Shown: positions 33,543 to 51,413 of the stretch, piece by piece | Layout of the letters: the number at the start of each line of letters is the position of its first letter | Numbering within the stretch: the stretch's first letter is position 1 | Origin: Dichotomocladium elegans | Lineage: Eukaryota > Mucoromycota > Mucoromycetes > Mucorales > Lichtheimiaceae | Assembly (NCBI GenBank): GCA_025716815.1 | Contig: JAIXMN010000026.1 | Location: 124,001 to 188,000, forward strand | DNA length: 64,000 nt | Direction of reading: 5' to 3' | Made by a program: the position numbers and the translations under genes | Notes under the pieces: model-generated | Database searches by the model: none | What the model was told of the DNA's origin: nothing | What the model saw: only the letters and a program-made list of their open reading frames with translations

Positions 33543-35162
33543 ATGAGCGATCTTGGAGTAGCAGTAGTCAAATCAATCGAAACCATCGGCGATGTTGCTT
33601 CAACAAAGGTCAGCACCGAAGCTACGGCCGACACGGCCCCAGCTGAAGTCGGCGAGAAGCGGAAAACAGAAGAAGCAGGGAACGAGGTACAACCGAAAGC
33701 CAAGCAGCGACGAGTGAAGCAGCATCGCGACGAGGATTTCCGTGATCGGAACGACTTGGACAGCGTTGAATACATTATAGAGAATGGTGCGTTGCAAAGA
33801 GGGGTAGGAAGCCGATGCGATCGCTTCTTTACTGAGTTATCTTCGGGTAGGCTTGCGCAAAGTCAAGCCATATTTTTTTGAATACCGAGCATACGCAAAG
33901 GGCCGTTGGATGAAACGACCAATTCTGAATGTTTTTGTCGAAGAGTTTCAGGACCGGAACGAGGTTTATTACGTAAGTTAGTTTAAAGTTTGATGAACGA
34001 GAATAAATAGAATTATTCTTGTCAGCGACATGCCATCGAGCACGGACTCATCACCATCAATGGCGAAAAAGTCGGTCTCGATTACGTGATCAAGAACAAT
34101 GACGTTCTTGGCCATCATATTCACCGCCATGAGCCCGTCGTTACGGCCAAGCCAATCGACATTGTCCATCAGGATGACAGCCTTCTGGTGATCAATAAAC
34201 CCGGAGGCATTCCGGTAAGGACATGGCCTCGCACTTTTGTAGATAGCTAGGATGTCCTGACGTAGTGTCTAGGTCCATCCGGCCGGTCGTTATCGTCACA
34301 ATACGGTGATTCACGTACTGCGAAAACAACTCAACATACCCCGTTTGTTTCGTGAGTACAATTTAAGAGGGCGGAAGCGTTGTATGTGCGCAACAGCCTT
34401 TCTAACCAAATCCATGCAGCTGCAAATCGATTGGACCGGCCCACATCAGGACTGATGCTTATTGGACTTAATTCTGAACGCGCGCGCCAGTTCGAGAGTC
34501 AAATGGTTTCTGGACAGATTCAAAAAGAATACGTCTGTCGTGTGGTTGGCGAGTTCCCAGAGTTAGTAAGATCATAGACGCTATGCAAAGAGCCCAAACT
34601 GAACTAACGGGGGGACGTGGGGATATATAGTGGCGAGATTGTATGCGAAGCGCCCATCAAGACGATTTCTTACAAACTGTCCCTGAACTATGTCCATCAG
34701 GACGGCAAAGCATGCAAGACAGTATTTGAGAAAATCAGCTACAATGGCAAAACTAGCGTAGTACGCTGCAGACCAAAGACGGGCAGGACTCATCAAATCC
34801 GTGTGCATCTCCGATACCTCGGCTTTCCGATTGGAAACGATCCTATTTACGGAAACGATCTACCGTGGGCACCTTTGCTGGGCAAAGGCCAAACGCTCGA
34901 CGATGAAGCTTCTGAAAAGGTCGTCAACAAGGTGCTTGAAGAGTCATCGTTCCCGGAGGGCATGTGGGAGGACAAGCTGGATGAGGAAAGCGGAGTAAAA
35001 AAACGAGAGCCCCGATGCGATGAGTGTGGGTTGATGTTGACGCCAGATCCACAGCCAAAAGAGCTGTTTATATGGCTACACGCATGGCGATACGCGGGCG
35101 AAGGATGGGCCTACGAAACTGAACTGCCGTCGTGGGCTGAAGAGGTCTTTGATGACGATTGA
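33543..35162 (+). CDS. RluA-family RNA pseudouridine synthase (PUS9/RIB2-like)
   Basis: Isomerises uridine to pseudouridine in RNA. By its closest features it is of the fungal Pus8/Pus9 type that modifies position 32 of tRNAs. It begins MSDLGVAVVK with a charged, Lys/Arg-rich N-terminal extension. An S4-like RNA-binding segment follows (RHAIEHGLITINGEKV), then [27 protein letters not shown]. The catalytic motif II reads NRLDRPTSGLMLIG, with the nucleophilic Asp present but Asn in place of the usual His before RLD. Then KEYVCRVVGEFP and the motif III region GRTHQIRVHLRYLGFPIGNDPIYG are present. The C-terminal part has a CDECG pair of cysteines and FIWLHAWRY. Six or so exons with short introns, all with GT-AG ends. 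It converges with the RRM gene. The two stop codons are only about 95 bp apart. Confidence 0.93.
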
Positions 35163-35257
35163 TTTGGAAACGAATAACGAATAAAGATTCCGTCACAAAA
35201 GAGCGCCATCTTTTTCATATACAGCTACTGACTGCTTACAACTACGTTTCACCTAGT

Positions 35258-45676: not shown

Positions 45677-47954
45677 TATGTGGTGCATGTGAGCGTGTAA
45701 ATGCACTATCAATCTCCTATGTCATTAAATATAGAATTGCGAAGATACACAGTTCACTCACTTAAACTTCTGCAAATCGCCGTGGAGAGGGAGAAGCGAC
45801 CAACTTGAAGCACTGGAATACTTGAAGAAAACATCAGAAGAGTACTCAGTCTATATTTAGGGAAGTTCAACCAAACTTGCAATTTGGAATGCTGAAAATG
45901 GTGATGTGCGTAATTGTGGGACAACCGAAAGCAATATTCACATCAATGCTTGTTAAAGCTGAATGTCCCATACCTTGAAGTGTACAATTTGCTGCTTCAT
46001 GGCGGCATGAACTGCGAATGATATGAGAGATAGATTGTTCCATCGCGCTTTTTGCACCCAGATATACATCAAAAGATGTGGGGCAACGCTACAATGAGGA
46101 TCAGCATGAAGAATGTAGTAACGAAATTGGGAATGGACCATAGAAAAACTCTAACGGTCGGTGATTAAGCACATACTGCGGGAGCGTAATCCCATCGTCA
46201 AGAAACTTAATAGCAAAGAGCTCTCGCGCCCAACCAGTCTCCAAAGAAAGCAGAACCAGAAAATCACCAGAGGTAACCCTTATTGAATGACAACCACGAA
46301 GCTCATCCTATGTTTATTTATTCTGTAGCCATATTTATCTCGTAGTTCCTATCCATTTCTGCCAGCTTTACCTTAAAACAGGGGAAGCGTGCGTGGATGG
46401 GGCTAGATACAGTAACCAGGATGTTGTGCGAATAAACGCTGGTCACCGTTATCCATGCTTCTTCCACAGCTTTGTCCCGCAACGAGGGATATGAATCGCA
46501 CCTGCTCATGATCGATAACCATATCATCCGTCTTGTGGTTACTCTGAATACGTACGCATGGGTGGAAGAGTATGCAGTGTTTTGAAAAACGTTGCCTCCT
46601 GTAAAACGAGCATTTCTCAAAAGATTTGATTGTTTTGGGATTGCACCATAAGAGAAACCATGAGTGTACTTGTGGGATCACCATACAAAGGGATGGCGGG
46701 TCCGTGGTTGACGTCCCTGATTGGGCTACAGGTCTCAGGCTTATCTTCCTCGCTAATCATGGCCGCAATGATTTCTGGAGTACTACCGATCTAATAATTA
46801 CAACTGAGCCTGAGTTTGATCCTCGACGCATCTTGGTTGAGAAGAGATGCCCTTGATAATGACGAGTACGGGAGAATCTTGGCATGGTTTTGATATAGGC
46901 CCCACCCGAGAGCGGAGATGTCTGGAGCAGACGGAAAGAAAAAATCGGCGGTATTACTTTAAACCAAATACAGAACATCAACGCATAGCCCTTTTTCTGC
47001 ATCGCACGACAACATCAACGTTAGGTCAACAAAAACTGCACTCGGTGACAGTTACGTAAGAGCAGCACGTTAAGATGAGAGTCTTAAAGAGCACCAAGTC
47101 AGCAAACCATCGTGGGGGCCGCATGGCGTTTATCTGCACAGATTAGTGAGGGCACAGGGACTTGGGAATAATCCAAGCTGCAATCTCAGGACTGGTGCAA
47201 AGTGCCTTCAAAGGGCGCAAATGGCCGCGTAAGATCTGAAGTTCAGTAATTGATTACAACTGCTTATAGGTGTACCTGCTGTGGCGATTGGATAGGATTA
47301 TGAGAGTATTAACCGTTGCCGTATAACAAATCAGTGCAAGTCGGAATGCAGAAATCAGGGTGAGATCAGCTTAATGGAGATTGTTACCGAGACATCAGCT
47401 TCGATATGACCCTAACAGAGAAGAGTTGTCATGGAGAATAAAGACCTTGGTATGTAGAATATTTGCGACAGGGTCGAGAGAATAAAAAGGTGTCGGAAAC
47501 GATAGCCATTTGATCTCTATATAACTGCGGCGACACATCCCGGATAGGGAAAAGGCACTTCGAGTGGCGGTCTACTCCTACACCGATTGATGAATTAGTC
47601 TCTAGCCTGCTGCGAGAGTATGGTAGACAAAACGATGCTTGATCAATGTATAATGCATGGTTTCTTTATTGATGTACATCTGTATCAGCGCGTGAACCCA
47701 GTACGCCACGTCAGGGGTCTGAAGAAATAAAAGGAAGAAGTATACTGAAAAGGATATCGCTATTTAGCGAGCATGGAGCAGTTCAGTTGTGATGCATTTG
47801 GAGCTAAGCAGCTAACTATGGATATGACTAATGCTTGAGCTAGCATCGTGCAGTTTCTATGTTCACGTGAGGATTAAAAAGGTGGGGTTGTTGCGCAGAT
47901 AGTAAGCAATGCAAGATCCGTAATGAAGCTACTGTGTTATTGCATGCAGAGCAT
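45677..47954. other. gene-poor region
   Basis: Nothing recognised. The + strand frame at 46626-46856 (VDVPDWATGLRLIFL, NDFWSTTDLIITTEPEFDPRRI) reads like a piece of an old coding sequence interrupted by stops. I could not assign it to a family. Confidence 0.45.
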
Positions 47955-48417
47955 CAGCGTTGGTATGATCTGACTCGTGACTTATACCATTCGTATCGGT
48001 CGTCATCCGCAAATAATGCTTGAGCAGGTTCGTGTGTCAGCATCCGAAACTCGTTTTTCTGCTGCTCGATTGTCTTTCTGTTCAAATAGGGGAGATTGCA
48101 TACCACCACATTGAACATTCCGTGACGATCATTTCATAGCGCTGTATCACACTCTTCCCACTCGTCTCATGTCGGATCAATACCCAACCTTGACAATTGT
48201 GAATGCCTTGTTGCTGACTAATTTGATATCCGCTACACTACCATGGAAGATAGAGAGCGATACATTGCTGCATCTAGCCCAACATCCAGTACCCACCGCA
48301 GCCTATTTTTTGATATGTCGCTCGACAAGTATGCTAGCGTTGCGTCGACTAGAGTTCCGGTGCTCGGTCATGGATCAAACACCATCTGTCACTCCGCACA
48401 TAAATCCATAAAACATG
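47955..48417 (-). pseudogene. decayed inverted copy of the methyltransferase part of the RluA-HemK gene
   Basis: Read on the minus strand, this segment aligns along its length with 50776-51265 of the intact gene on the + strand. Shared landmarks include ATGTTTTATGGA, CGAGCACCG, GTCGACGCA, TTGTCGAGCGACATA, CAAGGTTGGGTATTGAT, TATTTGAACA-AAGACAATCGAGCA, AAAACGAGTT-CGGATGCTG and ACGAATGGTATAA. Changes include many transitions, small deletions and frame-breaking stops, so it no longer codes. It corresponds to the PrmC core from before the IPRP motif to past NPPY. The copy is in inverted orientation about 1.1 kb upstream of the intact gene start. No matching copy of the N-terminal part was found. 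Confidence 0.85.
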
Positions 48418-49520: not shown

Positions 49521-51413
49521 ATGGTTGATCGAGACAAGATTAATTATCTAAAGGTGTCAGTTAGCGATGCCGATGATGGTACTCGAATCATGAAATGGCT
49601 TGTGCATCGGTACCGAAATATTGTTCAGTCCAAAGAATGCTGTAAACGGTCTTTCCATCGCAAGGAGATCACTGTAAATGGCGAGGCGGTAGAGGAAACG
49701 CGTATTTTGCACGCAAACGACGTGGTCGAAGTCAAGTACAACAGAGGCCTTGTCGAGATAGAACGGCTCAAGACTGTGCCGGTGGATATACGGTATCAGG
49801 ATGCTCATCTTGCTATTGTGTGGAAGGCGCCGGGACAGGTAACTGATCAAAAAATGACGCGAGACCTGCATGGGGCTAACAAGGAATTGTAACGGATAAA
49901 GAGCTTTGGCGTTTTTGAACGAGCGCTGCCATTTGCGCTAGGGCGATCCAAAGATGATCCCCCTCTGTGGTGTATCTATACTATGCAAAAAGCAGGCTCA
50001 GGTTTGGTAAATCGAGAAAAGAAAGTGTGTATGGTCTTTGCGAAGGACTAGCTTACGAGTATGATGTGCAATTAGCTTGTTGTCACGAAATCGGAGGAGG
50101 CAAAGGCTTATCTTAATAAGGCGTACAAGGAAGGCAATGACTTTGATGTGACAATGCGAGTGATTTGCCATGGCCATGTCCCTGCGGACTTATTAGATAT
50201 CCTGGATGACAACGACGTGCAACCATCGCAGCCGACCCCTGATGACGAAATTGCCGCGAGCAAAGACGGAAACAACGATGATGATGATGTCATGGAGGAA
50301 GACACTCCTACAGTAGCTGCCAAAGACCTGCTGAAGTCGCTCAAGATTGTGCAGATCACGCGGTCGAACAATGCCGATTACCTAAGCACACTCGATCTCG
50401 GCTTGAGGCCGCCAGTGTCTACTATTGCAATTCGAAGTCTATTCTACTATCGCTCGCCGTATCCGATCGTGGGCAACTCGACCTACACAAAGTTCCTCAA
50501 GTCGAGCCGAGACAAAGGTCTGTGCATGAGCGTGACACAGGTGAGGCTCGTCCACCCTGTGACCGGAAAGCGGATGACTTGGACAGCGAGCGAGCCGGAT
50601 AAATTTGAGCTCTTGCGAGCACGAGAGCAGAAGTTCTGGCGACGGAAATTGGACGAAAAGCTAGCGGCTCTTGAGAAAGCCGGTCTTTTGGCAGCAGGCT
50701 CAGGACAGGATAACAGTGCGATTGACGACAATCAGGAAGAGAAAGGACGGCCACTGGCATATATAGTGGGCGAAAAGATGTTTTATGGACTTTTGTTCAA
50801 AGTGACAGATGCCTGTTTGATTCCACGGCCGAGCACCGAAACTCTCGTCGACGCAGTGCTGGCACAGTTGTCGAGCGACATACCAAAAGATGGGCCGCGG
50901 CGGATACTGGATATTGGGACTGGATGCGGCAATGTACTGCTTTCTATCCTTCACGCAAGTGCTGCGGATGTCAAGGGAGTCGGTGTCGACATCAGCAACG
51001 AGGCACTCTCAATCGCGAAGGGCAATCAAGCAAGGTTGGGTATTGATTCATCGCGAGTCGAGTGGGAAGAATGCGATATGGCGCTATTGAATGATCGTCT
51101 CGGAATGTTCGATGTGGTTGTATGCAACCCTCCCTATTTGAACAAAAAGACAATCGAGCAACAGAAAAACGAGTTCCGGATGCTGGCACACGAGCCTGCT
51201 CAGGCATTGTTCGCGGATGACGACGGGTACGAATGGTATAAAGTCCTGAGCGAGGTCACACCCACACTCATGCATCGACGGTCCAAACTGGTACTTGAAT
51301 GTGGCAAGGGGATGATGGATCGAGTCAAGCTGATTATGAGTGGATGGAAGACTGTCGAGATTCGGAAGGATAAGCAGGGATGGGATCGATGCCTGGTTTT
51401 GGAACTGGAATGA
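49521..51413 (+). CDS. fusion of S4/RluA pseudouridine-synthase-like domain (inactive site) and HemK/PrmC-type methyltransferase
   Basis: Exons: 49521 to about 49838, about 49911 to 50007, and about 50074 to 51413. They join in frame at CAG|GTAACT...AAAG, then TTG|GTAAAT...TTAG. N-terminus: an S4 RNA-binding segment (DADDGTRIMKWLVHRYRNIVQS...ITVNGEAVEETRILHANDVVEV), then the RluA strand VDIRYQDAHLAIVWKAPGQ. The place of the catalytic HRLDxxTSGLL motif reads YTMQKAGSGLL (49977 onward), so Asp is replaced by Gln. TKSEEAKAYLNKAYKEG and a GxPIVGxxxY-like FYYRSPYPIVGNSTY complete the RluA fold, with an acidic insert between. C-terminus: PrmC features RPLAYIVGEKMFYGL, CLIPRPSTETLVD, the AdoMet motif ILDIGTGCGNVLLSI and the catalytic VVCNPPYLN. 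HemK/PrmC enzymes methylate glutamine in release-factor GGQ motifs. Whether this one does is unknown. The RNA-binding half may guide it. Confidence 0.88.

Follow-up and report, generated by a model that had tools for sequence, protein, structure and literature searches.

Glutamine methylation in translation is known to come from HemK enzymes; enzymes of the RluD, RluC and RluA kind are pseudouridine synthases acting on 23S ribosomal RNA (rRNA) or transfer RNA (tRNA). For eukaryotic cells, one paper (PMC8904536) counts two PrmC homologues, gives HEMK1 a predicted mitochondrial signal and describes the Mtq2 type as having Phe before its NPPY motif. Here we describe a gene of the fungus Dichotomocladium elegans, at positions 49521–51413 (+) of a stretch of 64,000 nucleotides (nt) that we call the window (contig JAIXMN010000026.1, positions 124,001 to 188,000, of assembly GCA_025716815.1; 39.4 Mb in 122 contigs), in which these two kinds of enzyme are predicted to be joined in a single chain that has lost the synthase site and kept the methylase site.

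With PrmC/HemK (2b3t from E. coli, 1sg9 from T. maritima) the fusion protein shares the methyltransferase fold, a GxGxG-type motif for S-adenosylmethionine, NPPY, PR and EP..AL; in contrast to them it carries an S4–RluA module in front, lacks the acid of the IPRP[E/D] motif, falls into a separate tree group and scores just under the cut-off of the curated family RF_mod_PrmC. With RluD, RluC and RluA it has in common the S4 plus catalytic-domain fold, the KPxG loop, the GL..AK[TS] strand and the Arg of QIR, whereas HRLD and GRTHQ are gone, a methyltransferase is joined on and, in the Mucorales, an acidic insert is present. Mtq1/HEMK1, the mitochondrial HemK methyltransferase, is encoded by a separate gene of the same genome and has no RluA half. 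Mtq2/HEMK2 (with Trm112) belongs to the HemK superfamily and likewise has NPPY, but the fused proteins carry Cys, rarely Thr or Ser, before this motif. A literature search, with subscription-only papers outside its scope, showed among the papers listed no description of a HemK/PrmC–RluA fusion; a search on inactive pseudouridine synthases listed no paper on such a fusion either, and the matching passages of PMC5372719, all within its reference list, do not name one.

One gene, one chain

Hand splicing and comparison with orthologues give one three-exon gene for a protein of 586 residues, with the following parts.

49521–49838 (+): exon 1, with the start codon, the S4 domain (about 49548–49754) and the start of the RluA-like domain (KAPG loop); placed by N-terminal fit to full-length orthologues, by the S4 domain lying inside the rluA_subfam matches of relatives and by the RluD alignment of the Lichtheimia orthologue P0002
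49839–49901 (+): intron 1, 63 nt, GTAACT...AAAG, with a CTAAC branch-like site and an in-frame TAA if retained; placed by the orthologue join
49902–50006 (+): exon 2, RluA-like domain with motif I; placed by the splice model and orthologue alignment
49977–49988 (+): YTMQ at the place of HRLD, a predicted dead motif I
50007–50075 (+): intron 2, 69 nt, GTAAAT...TTAG; placed by the orthologue join
50076–51413 (+): exon 3, with the remaining RluA-like domain and its acidic, little conserved insert, a helical linker, the HemK/PrmC methyltransferase and the stop
50751–51410 (+): HemK/PrmC domain, residues 367–586, with IPRPSTE from about 50820, DIGTGCGN at 50910–50933 and NPPY at 51126–51137

When GT-AG introns of 40–150 nt are allowed, 147 two-intron models keep an open frame, and the final model was chosen among them by splice consensus and fit to orthologues. 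Its joins, APGQ/SFG at intron 1 and SGL/LVV at intron 2, match annotated proteins of Lichtheimia and Fennellomyces; the acceptor of intron 1, AAAG, is not of the commonest kind, and the join is nevertheless as in those proteins. An acceptor-like TTAG just 5′ of the start codon makes a 5′ exon possible. The preliminary description of this DNA, made from the letters alone, had spliced an S4 domain, an RluA-like fold and a PrmC methyltransferase into one protein, and its coordinates, strand and content all hold. Two separate genes or a mistaken join were considered and ruled out, as annotated one-chain proteins from many genera cover 94–100% of the query. The deposited D. elegans model, P0001, has 461 residues and is 100% identical over 76% of the query; it begins late and partly in the wrong frame (MIPLCGVSILCKKQAQ...), and so misses the S4 domain altogether and the RluA part by roughly half.

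One-chain relatives occur in genera of the Mucorales, Endogone, Jimgerdemannia, Mortierellaceae, Coemansia, Syncephalis, several chytrids and Anaeromyces, and further in Tetraselmis, Amphora, other protists and metagenomic proteins. These relatives place the fusion in early-branching fungi, some algae and other protists, the higher groupings being those to which we take the named relatives to belong. Each relative search scored about 8,000 candidates, and one gave 120 of 299 matches listed. Among the matches listed with a readable source name, many proteins being nameless, no fusion came from Dikarya, animals or land plants. A scan of contigs with patterns derived from HemK showed no bacterial fusion in the best 80 of 211 loci, all of which match only query residues from at least 275 onward, that is, the linker and HemK.

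The S4–RluA half and its former active site

The fold was assessed on P0002, which is 60% identical to the D. elegans protein. Its AlphaFold2 model (mean predicted local distance difference test, pLDDT, 84.8; predicted template modelling score, pTM, 0.62) aligns over residues 8–349 with full-length RluD (2ist) at a root-mean-square deviation of 11.8, so that the two do not superpose as a single rigid body, and over residues 333–602 with PrmC. In sequence, P0002 matches rluA_subfam (4.6e-12), RF_mod_PrmC (2.6e-55) and hemK_fam (5.7e-42), its rluA_subfam score of 45.8 lying below the family cut-off of 192.7. The S4 domain by itself scores below the Pfam cut-off and is assigned because the rluA_subfam matches of relatives begin in it and because of the RluD alignment. 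On these matches and the model, the N-terminal half is predicted to have an S4 plus RluA/RluD-like fold. The fold-match lists also include TrmM, METTL16 and METTL5, and the RluD-fold matches include chains that entry titles place in assembly particles, namely 7bl5 (pre-50S–ObgE) and the trypanosomatid mitoribosomal 7aoi, 6yxx and 7am2. A narrow search found no trypanosome mitoribosome assembly paper naming RluD; a broader search listed three papers.

Within this fold the catalytic residues of a pseudouridine synthase are gone: in D. elegans YTMQ stands for HRLD, Met for the Tyr of motif II and -STIAIRSL for the GRTHQ of motif III. To place these changes in the family, 56 fused proteins were aligned with five bacterial active-type RluA references, four of them near-copies; P0164 yielded no data, leaving 55. 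Models that start after motif I or lack it (P0001, P0009, P0010, P0013, P0015, P0016, P0021–P0024) and proteins too diverged to align (P0054–P0060, P0063, P0067, P0070, P0072, P0087, P0088, P0093, P0130) were left out of this count. HRLD is kept in none of the 55. At the place of the nucleophile stand Glu in 21, Gln in 14, Asp in 9, Pro in 3, Ser, Ala and Gly in 2 each, and Asn and Ile in 1 each, where the Ile, in P0031, may be a gene-model error and the alignment of P0165–P0167 is uncertain. Gln is found in all 14 Mucorales rows read, and Glu in fungi of the Mortierella, Endogone, Coemansia and Syncephalis types and some others. Asp is kept with His and Arg lost in P0032, P0036, P0046, P0047, P0048 and P0158–P0161, all chytrid-type fungi or Anaeromyces, the other chytrid rows having Ser, Asn or Glu. 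The Tyr of motif II survives in 16 of 54 proteins, including six of the nine with Asp, and the motif III Arg column is changed. The next residue after the nucleophile place is Lys or Arg in 50/55, followed by Ala, Ser or Gly in 52/55, where the references have an acidic residue. By contrast, all 53 proteins retain the Lys and Gly of KPxG, and 45 of 53 the QIR Arg. The dead site seen earlier in the single D. elegans protein is therefore a trait of the whole family as regards HRLD; in the nine relatives that keep the catalytic Asp, residual activity is possible, and there the earlier claim is weakened.

Conservation is about equal in the dead and the live half, a sign of strong constraint on the former. 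Across 13 Mucorales, it reaches 0.82 in the alignment columns around motif I, compared with 0.64 over residues 88–185 and 0.69 over HemK. Motif I is not quite the best conserved part of the N-terminal half: among 300 overlapping segments compared, it ranks second (fifth without counting gaps), on a par with the KAPG loop and a piece of the S4 domain. A chance mutation or a pseudogene of a normal enzyme was ruled out, given the loss of HRLD in all 55 proteins, the intact frame and the conservation of both halves. The constraint on an old cleft that lacks the residues needed for the known chemistry is our chief ground for supposing that something binds there.

An intact gene of the RluA type lies 14–15 kb from the fusion gene (window about 33900–35163, +; several exons, Pus9/Rib2-like by reading). 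With NRLD and GRTHQIRVHL, it offers a useful internal control for the reading of the active site.

The HemK half and its place in the family

The preliminary description held the methyltransferase motifs to be intact, and so they appear: DIGTGCGN and CNPPY are kept, and the domain scores 142.0 bits against TIGR00536 (hemK_fam; cut-off 115.5). It reaches 98.9 against L3_gln_methyl (PrmB), whose cut-off is 229.7. The columns of CNPPY and EP..A are invariant in alignment A1 of orthologues, and NPPY also in alignment A4. Among the fused rows, all 28 from protists and 48 of the 50 from fungi have CNPPY, the other two having Thr or Ser before NPPY, and EP..AL was matched by an in-house pattern in 47/50 fungal and 23/28 protist rows. 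The Cys before NPPY was dropped as a signature of a new class, since 63 of 97 ordinary PrmC-like matches have it as well.

The IPRP motif is where the fused proteins differ consistently. Its acid, a defining feature of PrmC by our own choice and drawn from the same rows, is present in 75 of the 76 ordinary PrmC-like rows matched (21 of 97 escaped the pattern) and in none of 63 fused rows (0/47 fungal, with 3 of 50 unmatched, and 0/16 protist, with 12 of 28 unmatched). Ser, Gly, Ala or Thr takes its place, Ser in D. elegans. Such a consistent change near the predicted active site could mean another substrate. The absence of PrmC_N (PF17827) was considered as a sign of a swapped substrate domain; it is unlisted for pieces of the fusion protein and for 10 relatives, and this argument was dropped because the N-terminus of the D. 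elegans Mtq1 fails the same test, the linker helices moreover aligning with part of PrmC.

The D. elegans genome holds an ordinary, Mtq1-like HemK gene on contig C112 (127.4 bits; 296 residues as reconstructed, with IPRWETE) and, on C30, an Mtq2-like gene represented by one exon piece (55.9 bits, below the family cut-off of 87) with FNPPY, which makes the fusion protein a third HemK. The Mtq1-like gene has an apparent GC-AG intron between IPR and WETE (L005 1421–1502). A tree was made of 70 HemK domains, 28 of them ordinary and 42 fused (25 from fungi, 17 from protists). The fused domains lie on one side of a branch that has support of 99/92 and recurs in 98% of 200 bootstrap trees, and thus apart from Mtq1; the sampling of ordinary rows is biased, as they are those that the searches returned, and the Mtq1 of D. 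elegans sits on a long branch. On the fused side, neither fungi nor protists form one group, and for this tree, which has no known root, one old fusion is the simplest reading. These sequence comparisons suggest that the fused proteins form a class of eukaryotic HemK methyltransferase of their own, the third after Mtq1 and Mtq2. P0168, an oomycete PrmC from Globisporangium splendens (PF17827 and PF01597), branches nearest to the fused group, on a long branch.

Remnants of the HemK stretch are found elsewhere in the genome, the nearest on the opposite strand about 1.1 kb upstream of the fusion gene:

47951–48416 (−): decayed partial copy of the HemK part, 78% identical in nucleotides across 496 columns, carrying stops and NLPY; nonfunctional

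More degenerate pieces with internal stops lie at G000:C50:340960-341361 (+) and G000:C112:361195-361715 (−). The HemK stretch of the fusion gene thus seems to have been copied repeatedly, the copies then decaying.

Site of action, mechanism and rival readings

Judged from annotated starts, which may contain errors or overlook a 5′ exon, no more than 17 residues precede the S4 core in 36 of 42 relatives, which makes an N-terminal presequence unlikely in most of them. The fusion is also carried by Anaeromyces robustus (P0046), and Anaeromyces we take to be one of the anaerobic gut fungi of mammals. The hydrogenosomes of these fungi are reported to lack a genome, and tortoise-derived gut fungi to show a hint of an organelle genome, in one paper (PMC10978972). 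The occurrence in Anaeromyces argues against a purely organellar role in translation and for the cytosol or nucleus, either of which is probably the site of action.

How might a dead synthase and a predicted methylase work together? The S4–RluA half may have been kept as a clamp that reads RNA, docking on a structured RNA such as rRNA, pre-rRNA or tRNA, the usual ligands of its RluA and RluD relatives. The HemK domain would then be held over a protein glutamine of the same RNA–protein particle, which it would methylate at N5. To this reading, in which a pseudo-RluA clamp brings a protein-glutamine methylase to an RNA–protein target, we give an even chance. It is made reasonable by the chain matching the RluD fold in 7bl5, by its entry title a pre-50S particle, and by the precedent of Mtq2, whose catalytic activity is required for 60S biogenesis (PMC7708063).

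Several observations weigh against this reading. RF_mod_PrmC (TIGR03534) is a near miss for the D. elegans HemK domain (187.4 bits for a cut-off of 199.1; P0002, 187.6). The Arg of HRLD touches RNA in RluA; having lost it, the module may bind RNA in some other way or may bind none. NPPY is common to N6-adenine methylases, which leaves a protein target unproven, and without the IPRP acid the rim of the predicted active site differs from that of PrmC, which could mean another kind of substrate. Among seven protist proteins scanned, only P0162 and P0050 match rluA_subfam at 0.001, and the N-terminal half of diatom-type relatives is recognized solely by an in-house profile, with E-values for a set of 156 proteins. 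For one of these outlying proteins, P0088 of Amphora, the AlphaFold2 model (pLDDT 82.7, pTM 0.55) has, by eye, the order of elements of the RluA half of P0002; its fold comparison includes no RluA chain among the 50 matches listed, methylases filling the lists. P0046 of Anaeromyces, finally, has 24 residues before the S4 core and is one of the six among 42 relatives with more than 17.

The main rival, which we regard as unlikely, is that the fused enzyme methylates RNA itself, the S4–RluA clamp setting an rRNA or tRNA base (e.g., at adenine N6) in the NPPY pocket. N6-adenine methylases have pockets of this type, an S4 domain with a methyltransferase is a known layout of RNA methylases, TrmM, METTL16 and METTL5 figure in the fold lists, and the acid of IPRP[E/D]TE is missing from all 63 fused rows matched. 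Less probable again is another release-factor methylase, acting on the GGQ of eRF1, of a mitochondrial release factor or of a rescue factor, whose N-terminal module was swapped or added and which needs no guiding RNA. Its nearest curated family is indeed RF_mod_PrmC, and the modelled linker helices of P0002 align with part of PrmC from residue 4 on; yet Mtq1-like and Mtq2-like genes are already present, the fused HemK domains form a tree group of their own, there is usually no room for a presequence, and the fusion occurs in Anaeromyces. On the grounds of the two further HemK genes, the short N-termini and Anaeromyces, a release-factor methylase, one of two suggestions in the preliminary description, is disfavoured as a purely organellar enzyme; the other suggestion, that of a new target for the methylase, is the better fit.

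The RluA half could instead be a structural or dimerization scaffold, or an RNA chaperone of ribosome assembly, with methylation secondary. The RluD-fold chains in assembly particles and the part of Mtq2 in 60S biogenesis would suit this, but conservation in the N-terminal half is among its highest at the KAPG loop and at the loop that was once catalytic, which a mere scaffold does not need, and the HemK motifs are invariant in alignment A1; we consider it improbable. That the module still makes pseudouridine, if only in the chytrids that keep Asp, seems very improbable. Other synthase families do have Asp without His and Arg, and nine of the 55 rows have it, six with the motif II Tyr, but eight other residues occupy the nucleophile place elsewhere and the motif III Arg column is changed. 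In the tree of the S4–RluA half, whose deep nodes are unresolved and branches long, the Asp-bearing P0032 is moreover sister to P0043 and P0044, which carry Ser and Asn.

Returning to the protein-methylating clamp, a fuller history can be offered tentatively, as one that is somewhat more likely wrong than right. An S4–RluA synthase and a HemK would have fused once in an early eukaryote; the synthase would then have lost catalysis, leaving Asp in several chytrid-type fungi, Glu in other lineages and Gln in the Mucorales, and would have been kept as an RNA clamp choosing the target within an RNA–protein particle, probably the ribosome or its precursor. The rim would have changed from IPRP[E/D] to IPRP[S/G/A] for a new substrate, and the whole would constitute an undescribed class.

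That the same odd fusion recurs across lineages points to an undescribed enzyme of methylation, perhaps steered to its target by RNA. If it is a third old HemK class, early-branching fungi, some algae and other protists would carry in their translation machinery an unlisted glutamine (or RNA) methylation, and nature would have made an RNA-modifying enzyme into a targeting module whose active site can be seen at several stages of loss in living lineages.
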